From: Desulfitobacterium metallireducens DSM 15288
Lineage (GTDB): Bacteria > Bacillota > Desulfitobacteriia > Desulfitobacteriales > Desulfitobacteriaceae
Assembly (NCBI RefSeq): GCF_000231405.2
Contig: NZ_CP007032.1
Coordinates: 1,488,001 to 1,552,000 of the forward strand
Direction of reading: 5' to 3'
Length of the DNA stretch: 64,000 bases
The translations under genes and the position numbers were made by a program. The notes below the pieces were generated by a model. It had not been told where the DNA came from. It saw only the letters and a program-made list of their open reading frames with translations, and searched no databases. Shown here piece by piece: positions 13,363-51,499 of this stretch (the stretch's first letter is position 1; each line of letters starts with the position of its first letter).

Positions 13363-15099
13363 ATGAGAAGAACAAAAATCGTTTGTACAATCGGTCCAGC
13401 TAGTGAAACGCCGGAGAAGGTTAAAAACCTTCTTCAGGCGGGAATGAATGTTGCACGTCTAAACTTTTCGCATGGGACTCATGAGGAACATGGCCAACGC
13501 TTACGCGTTTTAAAAGATGAAGCTAAAAAATTAGGAAAACATCTCGGGATATTATTAGACACAAAAGGCCCGGAGATTCGAACAGGAATGGTCCCACAAA
13601 CAGGTATTGAATTAATAAAAGGAGCCTCTTTTATTCTCGATACAGATATAGATAACTTAGGTTCTTTAGAAAGAGTGGGAATTACTTATACTGACCTATG
13701 GCAAGAAGTTAATCCCGGAACGCATATCCTTCTCGATGATGGTTTGATTGATTTAGAGGTTGAATCTGTCCATAATGGAAAGATTTACACTCGTATTTGC
13801 AACGAAGGTCTTCTAAAATCAAGAAAGGGAGTTAATGTTCCAGGTGTTCCGATTCTGCTTCCCGCTGTCACTGAGAAGGACATTAGTGATATCCGCTTTG
13901 GGATTGACCAAGGGATTGATTTTATCGCTGCTTCCTTTACCCGAAAAGCATCAGATATTATTGCCGTTCGAAAAATTGTTGAAGAAGCAAAAGCAAATGT
14001 TAAACTCATTGCAAAAATAGAGAGCCGTGAGGGTCTGAACAACCTTGATTCTATCCTAGAAGTTGCGGATGGACTGATGGTTGCAAGGGGAGACCTAGGA
14101 GTAGAGATACCGGTGGAAGAAGTGCCTATCGCCCAAAAAGAGATGATTCGTAAATGTCATCTCTTAGGAAAACCGGTCATCGTTGCAACACAAATGTTGG
14201 ATTCCATGATCCGAAATCCTCGTCCAACGCGAGCTGAAGCCAGTGATGTTGCCAATGCAATTTTAGATGGAACGGATGCTATCATGCTATCAGGGGAAAC
14301 GGCTGCGGGACAGTACCCGGTTGAAGCTGTCGTCATGATGGATAAAATAGCTCACCATACTGAAACACGCTATTTTGATGAGCAGACATCACGTCATCCT
14401 CAGTTGAACGTGGCAGAAGCGATTAGTTATGCAAGTTATACGATCGCCCATGATTTAGATGCTCCAGCTATTTTGACGCCCACCCACTCAGGTTTGACTG
14501 CCCGTATGATTTCTAAATATCGCCCTAAATCGTTAATCATTGCCGCTACACCCTTTGAAACTGTAGCTCGGCAACTTACCTTGCATTGGGGCGTTATTTC
14601 CTTAATTATTCCTGAAAGTGCTGGCACTGATCAACTTTTATCCAATGCGGTTAACGAAGCTTTATCCCATAACTTGCTTAAAACAGGTGACATTGTTGTG
14701 ATTACAGCCGGGGTACCCGTCGGTAAAGTGGGAACAACTAATATGATCAAGGTCCAAGTGATTGGTAATGCAGTTGTTAAAGGGACAGGAATTGGTCGCA
14801 AATCCGCTTTGGGTCCGGCTCGTCTAATCGTCGATCCCAAGACTACACCTTTCGAAGATGGCGATATTCTCGTCTCTCGGTTTACCGATGCAGAATATAT
14901 CTCTTTGATCTCTCGAGCGGGGGCTTTAGTTATTGAAGAAGGTGGCTTAACGTCGCACGCTTCGATAGCCGCGCTTAATTACGGCATCCCTGCAATCGTT
15001 GGCGTCAAGGGTGTAATGGATAAATTCAAGGACGGGCAGCTTCTTACCGTAGATGCGCTTAGCGGAGTGATCTACGAAGGAACAGTAACGATTTTATAG
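13363..15099 (+). CDS. pyk: pyruvate kinase with PEP-utiliser C-terminal domain
   Basis: This 578-residue protein makes pyruvate and ATP from phosphoenolpyruvate. The N-terminal MRRTKIVCTIGPAS, the metal/substrate block TKGPEIRTG, and the active-site segment IAKIESREGL are all present. After about residue 475 comes an extra domain with the phospho-His motif GGLTSHASIAALNYGIPAIVG, as in Bacillus and other Firmicutes pyruvate kinases. The ATG follows GGGGAG. It is the last gene of a gap-pyk pair and ends in a strong terminator. Confidence 0.95.
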   Translation: MRRTKIVCTIGPASETPEKVKNLLQAGMNVARLNFSHGTHEEHGQRLRVLKDEAKKLGKHLGILLDTKGPEIRTGMVPQTGIELIKGASFILDTDIDNLGSLERVGITYTDLWQEVNPGTHILLDDGLIDLEVESVHNGKIYTRICNEGLLKSRKGVNVPGVPILLPAVTEKDISDIRFGIDQGIDFIAASFTRKASDIIAVRKIVEEAKANVKLIAKIESREGLNNLDSILEVADGLMVARGDLGVEIPVEEVPIAQKEMIRKCHLLGKPVIVATQMLDSMIRNPRPTRAEASDVANAILDGTDAIMLSGETAAGQYPVEAVVMMDKIAHHTETRYFDEQTSRHPQLNVAEAISYASYTIAHDLDAPAILTPTHSGLTARMISKYRPKSLIIAATPFETVARQLTLHWGVISLIIPESAGTDQLLSNAVNEALSHNLLKTGDIVVITAGVPVGKVGTTNMIKVQVIGNAVVKGTGIGRKSALGPARLIVDPKTTPFEDGDILVSRFTDAEYISLISRAGALVIEEGGLTSHASIAALNYGIPAIVGVKGVMDKFKDGQLLTVDALSGVIYEGTVTIL

Positions 15100-32840: not shown

Positions 32841-32926
32841 TAGAGTTGACTGATTTTACTTCTTTTTAGGACACCTTTTCAGACTTATTGCGTATAGTAA
32901 TAAGGATGGGGAGGTGCTTCCTACAT

Positions 32927-33904
32927 ATGCCGATTCGTATTACATTCCGACCGGATGATCATTTGCCTCCGGTGGTACATTCTCCTAAGCCAAAAGTTGC
33001 CCTTGAAAGTCAAAGCGAGCCTACAGTACAAAATTCAAAGTTTCGAAAAACCATATCTAATTCTACGGACAAGGATAAAGTTGAAGAAATCCTCTCAGAG
33101 CTAGATGCCCTGATTGGGTTACGAAAGGTTAAAGAGTTAGTTCGTGAACTGCAGGCCTATGTTGAAATACAAAGACGGCGGACACGGGAAAAGCTCCTTG
33201 CTGAGTCCTTAGTACTGCATATGATTTTTCGAGGAAATCCTGGTACGGGGAAAACGACTGTTGCTCGACTCATTGGCCGACTTTTTAAGGAAATGGAAGT
33301 CCTGCAAAAGGGCCACATTATTGAATGTGAGCGCGCGGATCTCGTTGGCGAGTACATCGGGCATACTGCACAAAAGACACGTGAACAGGTGAAGAAGGCT
33401 TTAGGCGGAGTTTTGTTCATCGATGAAGCCTACTCTCTTGCAAGAGGTGGGGAAAAAGATTTTGGAAAAGAAGCCATTGATACTTTAGTCAAATCGATGG
33501 AAGATCATAAAAACGAATTTATCTTGATTTTAGCGGGTTACCGTCATGAGATGGATTGGTTTTTACAGACTAACCCAGGACTTCGTTCTCGTTTCCCAAT
33601 TTATATTGATTTTCCGGATTATACATTGGATGAGCTTCTGGCTATCGGTGAAACGATGCTCAAAGATCGTCAATATGAATTCAGTTTTGAAACGAGAGAA
33701 GCATTTCGCTTTATGCTTCAAGGACTCTTAAATTCTCATCCCTACGCTGGAAATGCGCGATTGGTTCGAAATATGGCTGAGAGAGCCATCCGTAAACAGG
33801 CAGTTCGCTTATATCAGAAACCCAACTCAACTCGTGAGGAACTTATGCAGATTCTACCTATAGATCTCGCCATCGATGAAAATAATGCTCGGAATTCTTC
33901 ATAA
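32927..33904 (+). CDS. spoVK: stage V sporulation protein K, AAA+ ATPase
   Basis: This protein of about 325 residues is a CbbX/SpoVK-type AAA+ ATPase. It has the arm ELDALIGLRKVKELVREL, Walker A GNPGTGKTT, Walker B GGVLFIDEAYSL and sensor ILAGYRHEMDWFL. SpoVK acts in the mother cell during spore maturation. The ATG at 32927 was chosen over the upstream open frame because GGGGAGG precedes it. The next genes are hflX and ynbB, the same order as in B. subtilis. Confidence 0.9.
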   Translation: MPIRITFRPDDHLPPVVHSPKPKVALESQSEPTVQNSKFRKTISNSTDKDKVEEILSELDALIGLRKVKELVRELQAYVEIQRRRTREKLLAESLVLHMIFRGNPGTGKTTVARLIGRLFKEMEVLQKGHIIECERADLVGEYIGHTAQKTREQVKKALGGVLFIDEAYSLARGGEKDFGKEAIDTLVKSMEDHKNEFILILAGYRHEMDWFLQTNPGLRSRFPIYIDFPDYTLDELLAIGETMLKDRQYEFSFETREAFRFMLQGLLNSHPYAGNARLVRNMAERAIRKQAVRLYQKPNSTREELMQILPIDLAIDENNARNSS

Positions 33905-33967: not shown

Positions 33968-34008
33968 TCTTAATTGATGGCTAATTGCCGCTAAGATGGA
34001 GGTAAGGT

Positions 34009-35613
34009 ATGGATATCTTCGGAGATCTATCCGGAATACGGTTAACACAACTCGAAGAATTGAAAACGCTGTCTTCGCTCCGAACTGAACGTCCGGAGCT
34101 TATCCATGTCGATTTGCTTGATGGACTAAGTATTTTAACGGATAAGTGGAATAAGGAAATTGCCTTGTATATTAATCGCACGGGGCGAGTTAATGGCATA
34201 GCTGTAGGACATCATGCATCAGTTAAACTTCCTTCGGTACGAGTAAGGGAAGCCACCCATACACGATGTATTCATACTCATCCAGGGGGGAATTTTCAAT
34301 TAAGTTCTGTTGACCTTAGCGCTCTTGAATCTCTCTCCCTTGAAAGTATGACAAGTATTGGAATCCTCAATGGAAAAATCACGGGCGCTGAGCTCGCTTG
34401 TTTAACCGAGGATGGGACAATTCTCACTTCGAACTTCTCGCCTCAAGAGCTTGAAAGGCTTGACTATGATGAATTTCTCTCAGAGAATCGTACTCGTCAA
34501 ACCCCGATAACCCGTGCTCTTCCTGAGGAAGAACGGGCGTATCTTGTTTCAGTTGAAAATGAAGAACTAGCTCAAGAAATATTAACTGAATTAGCGGAAC
34601 TCGCTCGCACTGCAGGAGTTAAAGTTGTGGGACAATTGTTGCAACCCAAGCGTTACGGTAGTTCTGTTAGTTATCTCGGCAAAGGAAAACTCGAGACATT
34701 AAATCAACAACTCCAAAATACACATGCAAATGTTCTCATTTGTGATGATGAGTTAACTCCTGCCCAACTTCGAAATCTTGAAGAATATACCGGAATTAAA
34801 GTCTTGGATCGCACGGGACTTATCCTAGATATATTTGCACAGCGTGCTAAGTCTCGGGAAGGAAAACTGCAAGTTGAATTAGCACAACTCCAATATCTCT
34901 TACCTCGCTTGACAGGTCAAGGTCGATCACTCTCTCGTTTAGGTGGAGGGATAGGAACGAGAGGTCCTGGTGAATCCAAATTAGAGATGGATAAACGGCG
35001 AGTCCGTCAACGAATTTATATTCTCGAACAGGACTTAAAGGAGATTCGTAAACACAGATTGACACAGCGGCAACAACGCATTCGTAGCGGGCTTCAACTT
35101 GTTGCGCTAGTAGGATATACAAACGCTGGAAAAACAACATTTTTACAAAAAGCAATGGAACAAACTCGGGCTAAAGGTGAGTCACTTTCTGGAGAGAACA
35201 AGCTTTTTGCAACCTTGGATCCGACAGTACGTTCGCTTCAAATTGGCACATACCGTCAAATTCTGATGAGTGATACTGTTGGTTTCATTCAGAAACTCCC
35301 GCCTAAGTTACTAAACGCGTTCTTGGCGACTCTAGAGGAAGTTCAAAATGCGGATTTGTTGGTTCACGTTTTAGATGCAAGTCATGCTCGAGCTTTAGAA
35401 CAGGCTGATACAGTTCATGAAATATTGAAAGAATTAGATTGCGCTGATAAACCCACGATTACCGTCTTAAATAAAACGGATCAAGTTGAACAGATTTCTG
35501 ATCTTAATCGTTTAGCGCAGCAACTACCACACCCTGTATCACTTTCTCTGAAACAAGGAGATTCACTTGTTCCTGTCTGGAAAATGATTGAGGAACTTTT
35601 GCCTGAGAATTAA
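34009..35613 (+). CDS. hflX: ribosome-associated GTPase HflX with N-terminal JAMM-like domain
   Basis: This 534-residue protein is HflX, a GTPase that splits or rescues stalled ribosomes. The core (about residues 175-530) has the HflX domain and G1 GYTNAGKTTF, G3 DTVGFIQKLP and G4 NKTD. The first 170 residues are an added domain not found in E. coli HflX (426 aa). It contains HTHPGGNFQLSSVD, which fits the JAMM metallopeptidase pattern H-x-H-x7-S-x2-D, about 35 residues after a candidate catalytic Glu in KEIALYINRTGRV. This layout resembles the JAB domain of RadC. Family knowledge says some Firmicutes HflX proteins are long at the N-terminus. GGAGGTAAGG precedes the ATG. Confidence 0.92.
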   Translation: MDIFGDLSGIRLTQLEELKTLSSLRTERPELIHVDLLDGLSILTDKWNKEIALYINRTGRVNGIAVGHHASVKLPSVRVREATHTRCIHTHPGGNFQLSSVDLSALESLSLESMTSIGILNGKITGAELACLTEDGTILTSNFSPQELERLDYDEFLSENRTRQTPITRALPEEERAYLVSVENEELAQEILTELAELARTAGVKVVGQLLQPKRYGSSVSYLGKGKLETLNQQLQNTHANVLICDDELTPAQLRNLEEYTGIKVLDRTGLILDIFAQRAKSREGKLQVELAQLQYLLPRLTGQGRSLSRLGGGIGTRGPGESKLEMDKRRVRQRIYILEQDLKEIRKHRLTQRQQRIRSGLQLVALVGYTNAGKTTFLQKAMEQTRAKGESLSGENKLFATLDPTVRSLQIGTYRQILMSDTVGFIQKLPPKLLNAFLATLEEVQNADLLVHVLDASHARALEQADTVHEILKELDCADKPTITVLNKTDQVEQISDLNRLAQQLPHPVSLSLKQGDSLVPVWKMIEELLPEN

Positions 35614-35648: not shown

Positions 35649-36920
35649 TTGGAATTATGGGAAGAACTGCCTAGCTTGATTTCTAGGGCAATAGAACAGG
35701 CAGAAGCAGTCGTTCAAACACGATTACCTGACCTCAATGTAATCACGGAACATAATCACGCCAAAGTACTCAATGCCTTTCAAACTGAAAAGGTAACAGG
35801 TTATCATCTCTCTGGTACAACCGGTTATGGTCTGGGAGATACGGGACGTGAGGTTTTAGATAGGGTAGTGGCGCGTATTTTAGGAACTGAGGCAGCTTTG
35901 GTTCGAGGACAGTTCGTTTCAGGTACGCATGCGATTGCTACCGCGTTATTTGGGGTCCTTCGTCCTGGAGATCATTTTATTTCCATGAGTGGAGATCCTT
36001 ATGATACACTTGAAGAAGTTATTGGAATTCGCGAAACAGGGCAGGGGAGCTTAAAGGAATTTGGCGTTAGTTTTGATGCAATCCCGCTCAGCTCAGAAGG
36101 GGAAATTCAGTATAATTTACTTAAAGATGCTCTGAAGCCGAAAACGAAAATGCTGATTGTCCAGCGTTCCAGGGGATATGCTTGGCGGAATTCGATAGGA
36201 ATCGAAAAAATTTCTGAATTAGTGCATTTCGTTCGGGAAAACTATCCTCAGCTTCTTATTTTCGTCGATAATTGTTATGGGGAGTTGGTCGAGAAACTTG
36301 AACCAGGAGATATCGATGTCGATTTGATGGCTGGTTCACTGATTAAAAACCTAGGAGGAACTCTCGCCCCGACCGGAGGATACATTGCAGGGAAAAAGAA
36401 GTGGGTGGACCTTGCTGCACAACGACTCACGGCTCCGGGAATTGGTGGAGAAGTCGGCGCTACGCTTGAATGGCAACGTCTCTTTTTCCAAGGACTGTTT
36501 TTAAGCCCATTGACTGTAAGTGAAGCTGTACGTGGGGCAGTATTTTCCTCTGCCTTCTGGAAAGCTCTGGGATTTGAGGTCAGTCCATTACCGGAAGAAC
36601 CTCGAACGGATTTAATTCAAGCAGTTAAGTTGGGATCACGGGATCGAATGATTGGTTTCTGTCAAGGACTTCAGAAAGGATCTCCTCTCGACAGTTATGT
36701 TTTACCGATCCCTGCAGGCATGCCAGGGTATGAAGATGAAGTGATCATGGCGGGAGGAACCTTTATTCAAGGTGCAACGAGTGAATTTTCAGCCGATGGT
36801 CCGCTCAGAGAACCTTTTATTGTCTACCAACAGGGTGGGATGTCGTATCAGTATGTTAAGTTTGGTAATATTTTAGCAGCCTTAAATCTTTACGAGAAAG
36901 ATTTACTAAACGGGAGGTGA
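35649..36920 (+). CDS. ynbB: YnbB-like PLP-dependent methionine gamma-lyase family protein
   Basis: This 423-residue fold-type I PLP enzyme belongs to the aluminium-resistance/methionine gamma-lyase-related family called YnbB in Bacillus. The cofactor Lys is in AGSLIKNLGGTLAPTGGY, and DNCYGELVE supplies the Asp. The TTG start has AGGAGG. It follows hflX and precedes signal peptidase I with no terminator, which suggests one transcript hflX-ynbB-lepB. The reaction is unproven. Confidence 0.88.
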   Translation: MELWEELPSLISRAIEQAEAVVQTRLPDLNVITEHNHAKVLNAFQTEKVTGYHLSGTTGYGLGDTGREVLDRVVARILGTEAALVRGQFVSGTHAIATALFGVLRPGDHFISMSGDPYDTLEEVIGIRETGQGSLKEFGVSFDAIPLSSEGEIQYNLLKDALKPKTKMLIVQRSRGYAWRNSIGIEKISELVHFVRENYPQLLIFVDNCYGELVEKLEPGDIDVDLMAGSLIKNLGGTLAPTGGYIAGKKKWVDLAAQRLTAPGIGGEVGATLEWQRLFFQGLFLSPLTVSEAVRGAVFSSAFWKALGFEVSPLPEEPRTDLIQAVKLGSRDRMIGFCQGLQKGSPLDSYVLPIPAGMPGYEDEVIMAGGTFIQGATSEFSADGPLREPFIVYQQGGMSYQYVKFGNILAALNLYEKDLLNGR

Positions 36921-49197: not shown

Positions 49198-49422
49198 TTA
49201 CATACCACCTACTGGAGGCGAAAAAGCAACAGTATCACCATTTTGGAGGACCTGCTCGAATTCTACATTATTACTGTTAACGAGACATATAGCTACTTTA
49301 TCCAGCGGCAGATTATGTTTCTTAATGACATCAATCACTCGGCTATTTTCCTCAAGATGAGTTATTTGTTGCTCAAATCGACCTTCACGCAGATCCCCGA
49401 AAAGTTTTACATTCACATCCAT
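49198..49422 (-). CDS. MoaD/ThiS family sulfur carrier, ends in Gly-Gly-Met
   Basis: This 74-residue beta-grasp protein matches MoaD/ThiS, with the C-terminal FSPPVGG block. MoaD supplies the sulfur for molybdopterin through a C-terminal Gly-Gly thiocarboxylate. Here one Met follows the pair (…PPVGGM), which would have to be removed before activation. It is the third gene of the AOR operon. A clear ribosome site is not obvious (the region upstream is AAGGGG-like). Confidence 0.82.
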   Translation of the reverse strand: MDVNVKLFGDLREGRFEQQITHLEENSRVIDVIKKHNLPLDKVAICLVNSNNVEFEQVLQNGDTVAFSPPVGGM

Positions 49423-49453
49423 TTGGCTTAACCACCCCTTGTAAAAAAATTTC

Positions 49454-49678
49454 TTAACCTCCTCCTACTGGAGGAAAAATTGAAAATGTATCACCCTCTT
49501 TAAGCGTTTGTTCAGGCTGAACATTTCGACCGTTAACGAGACAAATTGAGACTTCCTCCCGGGGTATAGCATATTGGATGATTATATCAATAATCCGATA
49601 AGTATCTTGAACTACAATCTTCTGTTCTTTAAACCGTCCGTCCCGCAAAGTGGCAAACAGCTTTATAGTAATCTTCAT
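49454..49678 (-). CDS. MoaD/ThiS family sulfur carrier, ends in Gly-Gly-Gly
   Basis: This 74-residue beta-grasp paralogue is about half identical to the next gene downstream by eye (shared LVNxxNVxxEQ and FxPPVGG). It ends GGG, so it too may carry one residue beyond the usual Gly-Gly, or the last Gly may be part of the active end. The ATG overlaps the stop of the AOR gene by one base. Two MoaD-type genes behind a tungsten enzyme suggest a dedicated pterin supply. Confidence 0.85.
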   Translation of the reverse strand: MKITIKLFATLRDGRFKEQKIVVQDTYRIIDIIIQYAIPREEVSICLVNGRNVQPEQTLKEGDTFSIFPPVGGG

Positions 49679-51402
49679 TAAAACGTGTAAACCTGATCAA
49701 GCTCCTCACCCGTAAAATCCCAAATCGCGTTATGAGGAGGTATAGGTTCGCTAAAGAATTCCGGTAACCGGTCATCCTTTTTGCTGAATCCTGCAGCTTT
49801 GTTGAAGGTTCGTTCAGTTTTAAGTACAGTTTTACCGAGTTCGAACCAATCATCTACTGACCAGTTTGTACCATATTGAGCGTTGATCATGTCGACTAGA
49901 GCGTGAGAGACAGGTTCGTAGTCCAAGATAGCAAACGCAGTAAAGATACAAAGGCCAGCGCTATCGATGGCAGCGGTGGAAATTTGCATGTTTCTGGAAA
50001 GTTCAATCTGACCGTCTTTAGACAACGGGTCGACGTAACCGCCTACTTTCAGTATATTCGATGCAATGGTATACCCGGAGGTATGGTCGGCTCCCATGGG
50101 GTTCGTAGCGTAAGTCACGCCGATACCCTTGACAGACCTTGGGTCATAAGCCGTCATCGTTTGATGTTTAACCGTGGGTATACGAGTTACTCCATAGGCT
50201 CGTCCCGTAGAATCGGCTCCGTTACCCAGGATTCGACCTAAGGGCGTGCCTTCCTTAATCTCATCTTTCAATAATTTAAGGATCCCGTGACCATCTCCCC
50301 AGGGGAGCACTCCCGCTTCCATTGCAACCATCATGGTTCCAGCGGTTTCAATCGTATCAATCCCGATATCATCGCAAATATTATCCACATGCGCGATAAT
50401 ATCCAAATCGTCTACCAGACAGCCGGCCCCAAACCCCCAAATCGTTTCATACTCGAAACCTGAGGTAAGATATCTGCCATCTTTATCATTATAGGTTTGA
50501 GAACAACGGATGACACAACCTACATGACAGCCATGAGTGGAATCTCCCTTTCTGCTCATGATCGTATCATACATGGTCTCGCCGCAAATCTTTTCAGCTC
50601 CATCGAATTGTCCCAGGCGGAAGTTCTTCGTAGGAAGCCCACCCGCCTCATTGAGAATATTGACCAAGACGTCGGTGCCGTATTTGGGCAGGGCATTACC
50701 ACTCACGGGGTGGCTCAATAATCCCTTGTTAAAAATCTGAGCTGCATTCTTAAATTTCTCTTTATCGAGAATGTTAATTCCTGTTCCGTCGTTATCGTCA
50801 AGTGTAATGAACTTTATCCGTTTTGACCCCATTACAGCTCCGAGTCCACCACGTCCTGCGCTACGAATATGGCCTTTGGGGTCTTTGATTGAAATATTGG
50901 CCGCTACCATTTTGTATTCCCCGGCTTGTCCAATAGTCATCACCCCGGTATTTTCTCCATACCGTGAGGTTAACGTATGAAGGACTTCATAGTTGCCTTT
51001 ACCGAGTAGCTCAGTTTCTTCTTTGATTTCCACGCCATCTTTGTGGACATGAAGACAGTACCATTTATCTCCTTCTGGGATGCCCTCCACAATTAGGGCT
51101 TTAACCCCGAGTTTAGCCAGTCTTTGGGCAGCAGTTCCTCCAGCGTTACTCTCTTTAATACCGCCTGTTAACGGACTCTTGGATCCGACTGACAAGCGGC
51201 CTGAGTTTGCTGCCATTGTTCCAGCAAGCAATCCCGGCGCAAAGACCAATTTGTTTCTGCTGCCAAGCGGATGACAGGTTGGTTCGACTTCTTTTGCGAT
51301 GATGGCCGAGGTTAAACCTCTACCACCTAGCACTTTCCACTCTTTAGGGACTTCCTCTGCGACAAAGGAAAGATCCGACATATTGACACGATAGAGTTTC
51401 AC
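49678..51402 (-). CDS. aor: aldehyde ferredoxin oxidoreductase (tungsten type)
   Basis: This protein of about 574 residues oxidises aldehydes or reduces carboxylic acids with ferredoxin, using a tungsten-bispterin and one 4Fe-4S cluster. The N-terminal domain has NSGRLSVGSKSPLTGG. The cluster Cys are in GCHVGCVIRC (C-x3-C-x3-C) and the fourth in SAGLCIFTAF. The GADHTSGY block belongs to the pterin site. The GTG at 51402 was chosen because GGAGG is 8 bases upstream; the TTG at 51417 would overlap it. Two MoaD genes follow directly. The substrate range is unknown. Confidence 0.93.
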   Translation of the reverse strand: MKLYRVNMSDLSFVAEEVPKEWKVLGGRGLTSAIIAKEVEPTCHPLGSRNKLVFAPGLLAGTMAANSGRLSVGSKSPLTGGIKESNAGGTAAQRLAKLGVKALIVEGIPEGDKWYCLHVHKDGVEIKEETELLGKGNYEVLHTLTSRYGENTGVMTIGQAGEYKMVAANISIKDPKGHIRSAGRGGLGAVMGSKRIKFITLDDNDGTGINILDKEKFKNAAQIFNKGLLSHPVSGNALPKYGTDVLVNILNEAGGLPTKNFRLGQFDGAEKICGETMYDTIMSRKGDSTHGCHVGCVIRCSQTYNDKDGRYLTSGFEYETIWGFGAGCLVDDLDIIAHVDNICDDIGIDTIETAGTMMVAMEAGVLPWGDGHGILKLLKDEIKEGTPLGRILGNGADSTGRAYGVTRIPTVKHQTMTAYDPRSVKGIGVTYATNPMGADHTSGYTIASNILKVGGYVDPLSKDGQIELSRNMQISTAAIDSAGLCIFTAFAILDYEPVSHALVDMINAQYGTNWSVDDWFELGKTVLKTERTFNKAAGFSKKDDRLPEFFSEPIPPHNAIWDFTGEELDQVYTF

Positions 51403-51499
51403 CTTGTTACCCTCCAAAACTATTGTTTTATGAATCTCTTCATTCAGAATTTCACATAAGTATATTTTTCCCCATCAAACGTGATTTGATTCAATTATA

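Follow-up and report, generated by a model that had tools for sequence, protein, structure and literature searches.

The window (that is, the whole 64,000-nucleotide stretch of the Desulfitobacterium metallireducens DSM 15288 genome analysed here) carries the gene order miaA-hfq-typA-spoVK-hflX-ynbB-signal peptidase, which is the classical place of hflX, and its hflX, the single HflX gene of this genome, encodes a protein in which a JAMM/MPN+ domain precedes the HflX core (Table 1). Membership of the HflX GTPase family is evident from the equivalog match to TIGR03156 (421.9 bits against a cut-off of 216.75, residues 177–530) and the GTPase motifs GYTNAGKTT, DTVGF and NKTD, and ribosome splitting would be expected of the protein as a member of this family. 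A start that takes in the JAMM domain is supported by a ribosome-binding sequence, GGAGG, which lies six bases 5' of its ATG. The window protein shares the HflX core and the miaA-hfq-hflX neighbourhood with the HflX proteins of Escherichia coli, Listeria monocytogenes and mycobacteria, but adds the JAMM domain and is without the HflX C-terminal domain; the latter, which follows the GTPase domain, is missing also from same-family relatives of 530–578 amino acids (aa) and apparently present in JAMM-HflX proteins of 595–650 aa. Among 80 loci of relatives, the SpoVK-like AAA ATPase lies upstream of JAMM-HflX in 15 and ynbB downstream in 24, and the order miaA-hfq-spoVK-hflX-ynbB, which is kept in distant relatives, is complete in 6. 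Apart from members of the old hflX locus, the genes that recur as neighbours in these 80 loci are unrelated ones, and neither a substrate or tag system nor a dedicated partner gene is among them.

Table 1 Features of the hflX locus, in window positions
Feature	Position	Strand	Basis
AAA ATPase, SpoVK-like, conserved-locus member upstream of hflX	32888..33904	+	Pfam AAA + AAA_lid_6
Shine–Dalgarno sequence GGAGG, 6 bases 5' of the ATG	33998..34002	+	sequence
hflX gene, 534 aa, JAMM domain + HflX core	34009..35613	+	TIGR03156, 421.9 bits; PRK11058 matched only to 360/426
Predicted JAMM/MPN+ domain, residues 1–163 (confident part of the model)	34009..34497	+	AlphaFold2 pLDDT 84.3; Foldseek, VIA-align and PDB profile searches
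E50, predicted catalytic Glu, at start of strand 50–55	34156..34158	+	invariant in alignments; AlphaFold2 model
Predicted JAMM metal-binding motif H89-T-H91-P...S99-S-V-D102	34273..34314	+	invariant in alignments (P92 nearly so); model strand 86–92, then helix 100–108
Low-confidence linker, about residues 164–176	34498..34536	+	pLDDT under 50
HflX core: ND, middle region and GTPase domain, residues 177–530	34537..35598	+	TIGR03156, GTP-bdg_N, GTP-bdg_M, MMR_HSR1
PLP enzyme (Met_gamma_lyase, YnbB-like), conserved-locus member downstream of hflX	35649..36920	+	Met_gamma_lyase; downstream of JAMM-HflX in 24 of 80 loci

A preliminary description of this DNA had proposed that the N-terminal region is a JAMM-like domain resembling the JAB domain of RadC, and modelling bears out the fold. 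AlphaFold2, applied to residues 1–176 together with 78 relatives, gave a model (pLDDT 84.3, pTM 0.80; a single-sequence model of the full protein, with pLDDT 38, was left unused) that runs through helix 34–47, strand 50–55, strand 60–67, helix 79–84, strand 86–92, helix 100–108 and strands 113–120, 123–132 and 138–143, the same order of secondary structure as is known from JAMM domains. Strand 50–55 begins with E50, strand 86–92 ends with HTHP, and S99 and D102 stand at the start of helix 100–108. JAMM/MPN structures fill the best 46 rows of the VIA-align comparison, headed by PfJAMM1 (5ld9; Z 8.3, 112 aligned residues, 3.3 Å) and followed by RadC (Z 7.0), Rpn11, AMSH/Sst2 (6.8), BubCD (6.7), BRCC36, Cap3, CSN5 and Prp8, with the first other fold (cytidine deaminase, Z 5.7) at rank 47; Z values of 7–8 are middling in themselves, and the weight of this result lies in the uniformity of the match list. 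Foldseek returned CSN5 first (E 5.5e-4), and its other matches are likewise JAMM/MPN proteins.

Profile searches of 177,635 PDB sequences placed AMSH-type JAMM enzymes first (E 0.007–0.014, with HTHP...S-x-V-D aligned), and in a second such search these enzymes made up all 14 matches. Within the family, 12 of 22 members matched Prok-JAB at E values up to 1, and among 78 members at E up to 0.01 there were 12 matches to Prok-JAB and 7 to RadC, reaching E 2.6e-4. The window domain alone matched the RadC-like JAB family of Pfam at E 0.15–0.17, under the cut-off (PF04002, 12.4 bits against 22.1); neither Pfam nor NCBIfam gave a match above cut-off for residues 1 to about 163, and none of the 10 members rescanned one by one reached a Pfam cut-off, which may explain why the domain lacks annotation. 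A direct hhalign comparison with RadC was weak (probability 9.8%, P 0.0033), with the two HxH motifs paired. The domain is thus predicted by its model to have the JAB/MPN fold and related by profile to known JAMM families, marginally so for single sequences, and we regard it as almost certain that the N-terminal region of this HflX is a true JAMM domain.

The known systems closest to the domain each differ from it. PfJAMM1 and the archaeal JAMM1-type Ubl isopeptidases, the best structural match, have the same E...HxH...S..D site; however, the PfJAMM1 type is paired with SAMP/Ubl proteins, whereas the present domain (12% identity) is part of an HflX protein and shows no sign of a Ubl partner. 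The deubiquitinases AMSH, AMSH-LP and Sst2, which came first in the PDB profile searches, are ubiquitin-specific enzymes of eukaryotes, unlike the bacterial JAMM-HflX. As for RadC, the similarity of layout suggested in the preliminary description stands (JAB fold, HxHPxG...S..D and weak Pfam matches), but RadC is one of several JAMM families matched and scores lower than PfJAMM1. Judged by its sequence, the domain is not a member of the RadC family, given its score under the PF04002 cut-off and its HTHP (HTHPGG) with LSxVD in place of the signature HNHPSGxPxPSxxD, and the genome encodes a separate true RadC.

Residues 89–102 of HflX read HTHPGGNFQLSSVD, an exact H-x-H-x7-S-x2-D as noticed earlier, which occurs once among the six-frame open reading frames (ORFs) of the window where 0.057 occurrences would be expected from composition. 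The glutamate proposed as its partner in KEIALYINRTG (residues 49–59) is present as E50 and is invariant, although it precedes H89 by 39 residues and not by the roughly 35 first given. In a 22-row alignment, the invariant positions are G5, G9, E50, R57, G59, G67, V72, R86, C87, H89, T90, H91, P92, L98, S99 and D102 and no others, and the JAMM site stands out in that it is complete among so few. The conservation that the preliminary description had called for is likewise found, as 75 of the 86 relatives gathered without regard to the motif retain all five JAMM residues (E50, H89, H91, S99 and D102), a count that leaves out the 70 of 70 intact rows of a 9-row contig scan because the scan patterns themselves contain HTH. 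The 11 degenerate relatives (families f78, f39 and f85) have lost both histidines together and kept R57 and G59, with single-residue counts approximate in this set owing to its automatic alignment; a twelfth degenerate copy (L246), under profile detection, was recognised by eye. These domains sit on otherwise intact HflX proteins (L160, L162–L166, L168–L171, L161 and L246). Such loss of the metal site as a block, while the structural R57 and G59 stay, is as expected for a functional metal site. On this pattern, the region carries a JAMM/MPN+ site kept in orthologues, and a subset of lineages carries a pseudo-JAMM (that is, a putative pseudo-enzyme without both histidines). That the motif arose by chance in an unrelated extension, for which the single-sequence Pfam scores under cut-off could be adduced, is hardly credible, and this reading is in practice refuted by the JAMM fold, the PDB profile matches and the strict conservation of the site.

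Does the site imply catalysis? The domain might instead be a non-catalytic MPN scaffold or ribosome anchor, comparable to the MPN domains of eIF3f/h, Rpn8 and Prp8, that aids splitting or disorders rRNA and in which any metal is structural. Translation and splicing complexes are known to include MPN scaffolds, Prp8 is among the VIA-align matches, and twelve sequences hold the domain without its site. To our knowledge, eIF3f/h, Prp8 and Rpn8 are without a complete metal site, whereas that of JAMM-HflX is complete, and the invariance across Clostridia and Negativicutes of the five catalytic positions, including a Glu and a Ser that would serve catalysis only, is more than a scaffold need keep. 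The mycobacterial HflX extension does act on rRNA helices (PMC12493154); it comprises only 39–58 residues, which disorder H68–H71 (PMC12493154), and the present region, a predicted folded domain of about 160 residues, is too long to be of that short type. We consider a scaffold unlikely, if deserving of some weight. Given the predicted fold and the conserved site, we infer that the domain probably binds metal and is catalytic, and the peptidase- or deubiquitinase-like activity raised in the preliminary description is plausible.

The fusion occurs across Clostridia and Negativicutes, and thus in many anaerobic members of the Bacillota. By protein search, 59 of the 82 genomes of the class have the domain, and by profile search 72 of 398 sampled Bacillota genomes, spread over the phylum; hosts named in a scan of GTDB contigs include Acetivibrio, Pseudobacteroides, Sporomusa, Propionispira, Propionispora, Anaerobacterium and many Clostridia metagenome-assembled genomes. 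HflX is encoded in 67 of the 82 class genomes, among them all 59 that bear the domain (HflX of 530–651 aa) and 8 with only plain HflX (390–496 aa). Four genomes (G012, G015, G018 and G035) have both JAMM-HflX and a second, domain-less HflX, which in G018 is a partial match on a 315-aa frame. Of 179 loci, nearly all carry the domain as part of an HflX ORF; those that do not are truncated contigs and one ORF of 239 aa that is probably RadC. The HflX tree, whose backbone is poorly resolved, requires 10 changes between presence and absence of the domain, at least 3 of them forced by strong branches, and has sister pairs with and without it (L072/L255). A single gain is not demonstrable from this tree, in which gain and loss are indistinguishable; the simplest reading, given the weak backbone, is an ancient domain that was repeatedly lost. 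With some lineages lacking the site (12 sequences) and others the whole domain, it is dispensable for HflX. In one genome (G076:C1:2539224-2541629, partly L050), the JAMM-domain gene appears to be interrupted by an insertion, as the matches to profile residues 2–47 and 40–177 lie on one strand with about 1.86 kb between them.

A further possibility, prompted by the mention in the preliminary description of beta-grasp carriers in the same window, is that the domain trims the residue after Gly-Gly from ThiS/MoaD-type proteins and that HflX merely carries it. Two ThiS-family proteins, which together with an adjoining aldehyde ferredoxin oxidoreductase occupy 49198-51417 (minus strand), do have an extra residue (49454-49678 and 49198-49422, minus strand, ending PPVGGG and PPVGGM), RadC is the only other JAMM found in this genome, and Ubl carriers are processed by JAMM enzymes of other families. 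The distributions of carrier and JAMM-HflX over the 82 class genomes are nearly independent, however (31 with both, 28 with JAMM-HflX only, 7 with a carrier only and 16 with neither; Fisher p 0.09, uncorrected for kinship), and 28 of the 59 genomes with JAMM-HflX have no carrier match. In six genomes without JAMM-HflX that were inspected, the carriers have the same GGG end as elsewhere. In the 80 loci neither a ThiS/MoaD/Ubl carrier nor an E1-like gene recurs beside hflX, contrary to what an Ubl/MoaD-processing JAMM of the QbsD or Mec type would lead one to expect. We did not find support for the link, and carrier processing by this domain seems very improbable. The genome has a third carrier copy at another place (G000:C1:244381), which likewise ends in GGG, and an ending one residue beyond Gly-Gly is recurrent in the class.

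On the basis of these observations, we suggest that JAMM-HflX may be a two-module machine composed of an N-terminal zinc metallohydrolase and a ribosome-splitting GTPase. HflX splits stalled or vacant 70S ribosomes, with ND1 displacing H69 and the helical domain reaching the peptidyl transferase centre (PTC), and the short mycobacterial extension contacts uL16 and H38 and reaches the H69–71 junction (PMC12493154). By analogy with that extension, which is placed at the same end of HflX, and given the short linker, delivery of the JAMM domain to the same interface side of the 50S subunit is likely. HflX-GTP would dock onto a stalled 70S ribosome at the 50S subunit and then split the ribosome, and splitting would bring the JAMM domain to the subunit-interface side, near uL16, H38 and H69–H71. 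In that position, H89, H91 and D102 would hold zinc, E50 would act as general base and S99 would belong to the oxyanion hole, and the domain may hydrolyse a peptide or isopeptide bond of an exposed target (for example, a nascent chain, the tail of a ribosomal protein or a factor bound there). Given the complete predicted site, zinc-dependent hydrolysis of this kind is the most likely activity. Whether it would act on a ribosome-associated protein or peptide we judge to be evenly balanced, and the explanation as a whole, a ribosome-delivered JAMM zinc metallohydrolase, we hold to be slightly better than an even bet.

The bond need not belong to a protein, as a JAMM fold on the split 50S subunit might cut a peptidyl-tRNA ester or a nucleotide or RNA phosphate. 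Because the helical domain of HflX reaches the PTC (PMC12493154), a nearby hydrolase could clear blocked subunits. The JAMM domain, however, is attached at the ND1 side and not at the PTC loop, and nothing found here points to RNA. The substrate of the relative RadC is, as far as we know, unsettled, whereas the characterised JAMM enzymes known to us cleave peptide or isopeptide bonds. We consider a non-protein bond improbable. Returning to the two-module machine, we propose, as a tentative extension with somewhat less than even chances, that a large part of Clostridia and Negativicutes links splitting, by way of the JAMM domain of HflX, to site-specific proteolysis at the interface of the subunits, which would make the protein a ribosome-rescue peptidase that trims, for example, nascent chains, tails or ribosomal protein termini and is a functional analogue of Rpn11 in the proteasome.

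The titles and abstracts of the open-licence literature yielded no report of a fusion of HflX with a JAMM, JAB, MPN or metallopeptidase domain, and HflX is absent from the survey of prokaryotic JAB/Ubl associations by Iyer et al. (2006). A 2025 review of HflX mentions N-terminally extended forms in several Clostridium and Paenibacilli species and leaves the extension unnamed (PMC12493154). The present case is apparently a previously undescribed fusion of two known families. HflX is a conserved factor in ribosome rescue and in the response to antibiotics. A complete predicted metallopeptidase site on such a factor, retained in two Bacillota classes, would imply an as yet unconsidered proteolytic step on split ribosomes; the fusion suggests that the splitting of stalled ribosomes may go together with cleavage of a protein at that place and, if so, bacterial JAMM biology would reach further than Ubl conjugation, RadC and defence. 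A few point mutations in culturable, harmless anaerobes would put the prediction to a direct test.

Minor observations concern other genes. NUDIX, YigZ/IMPACT-like and CoA-binding genes, so named by sequence appearance, follow hflX in 7–9 of the 80 loci (L103, L104, L106, L115, L119 and L157); IMPACT is linked to translation stress in eukaryotes. Elsewhere in the window (13363-15099), a pyruvate kinase has a C-terminal PEP-utilizers mobile domain, which is a known form in Bacillota.
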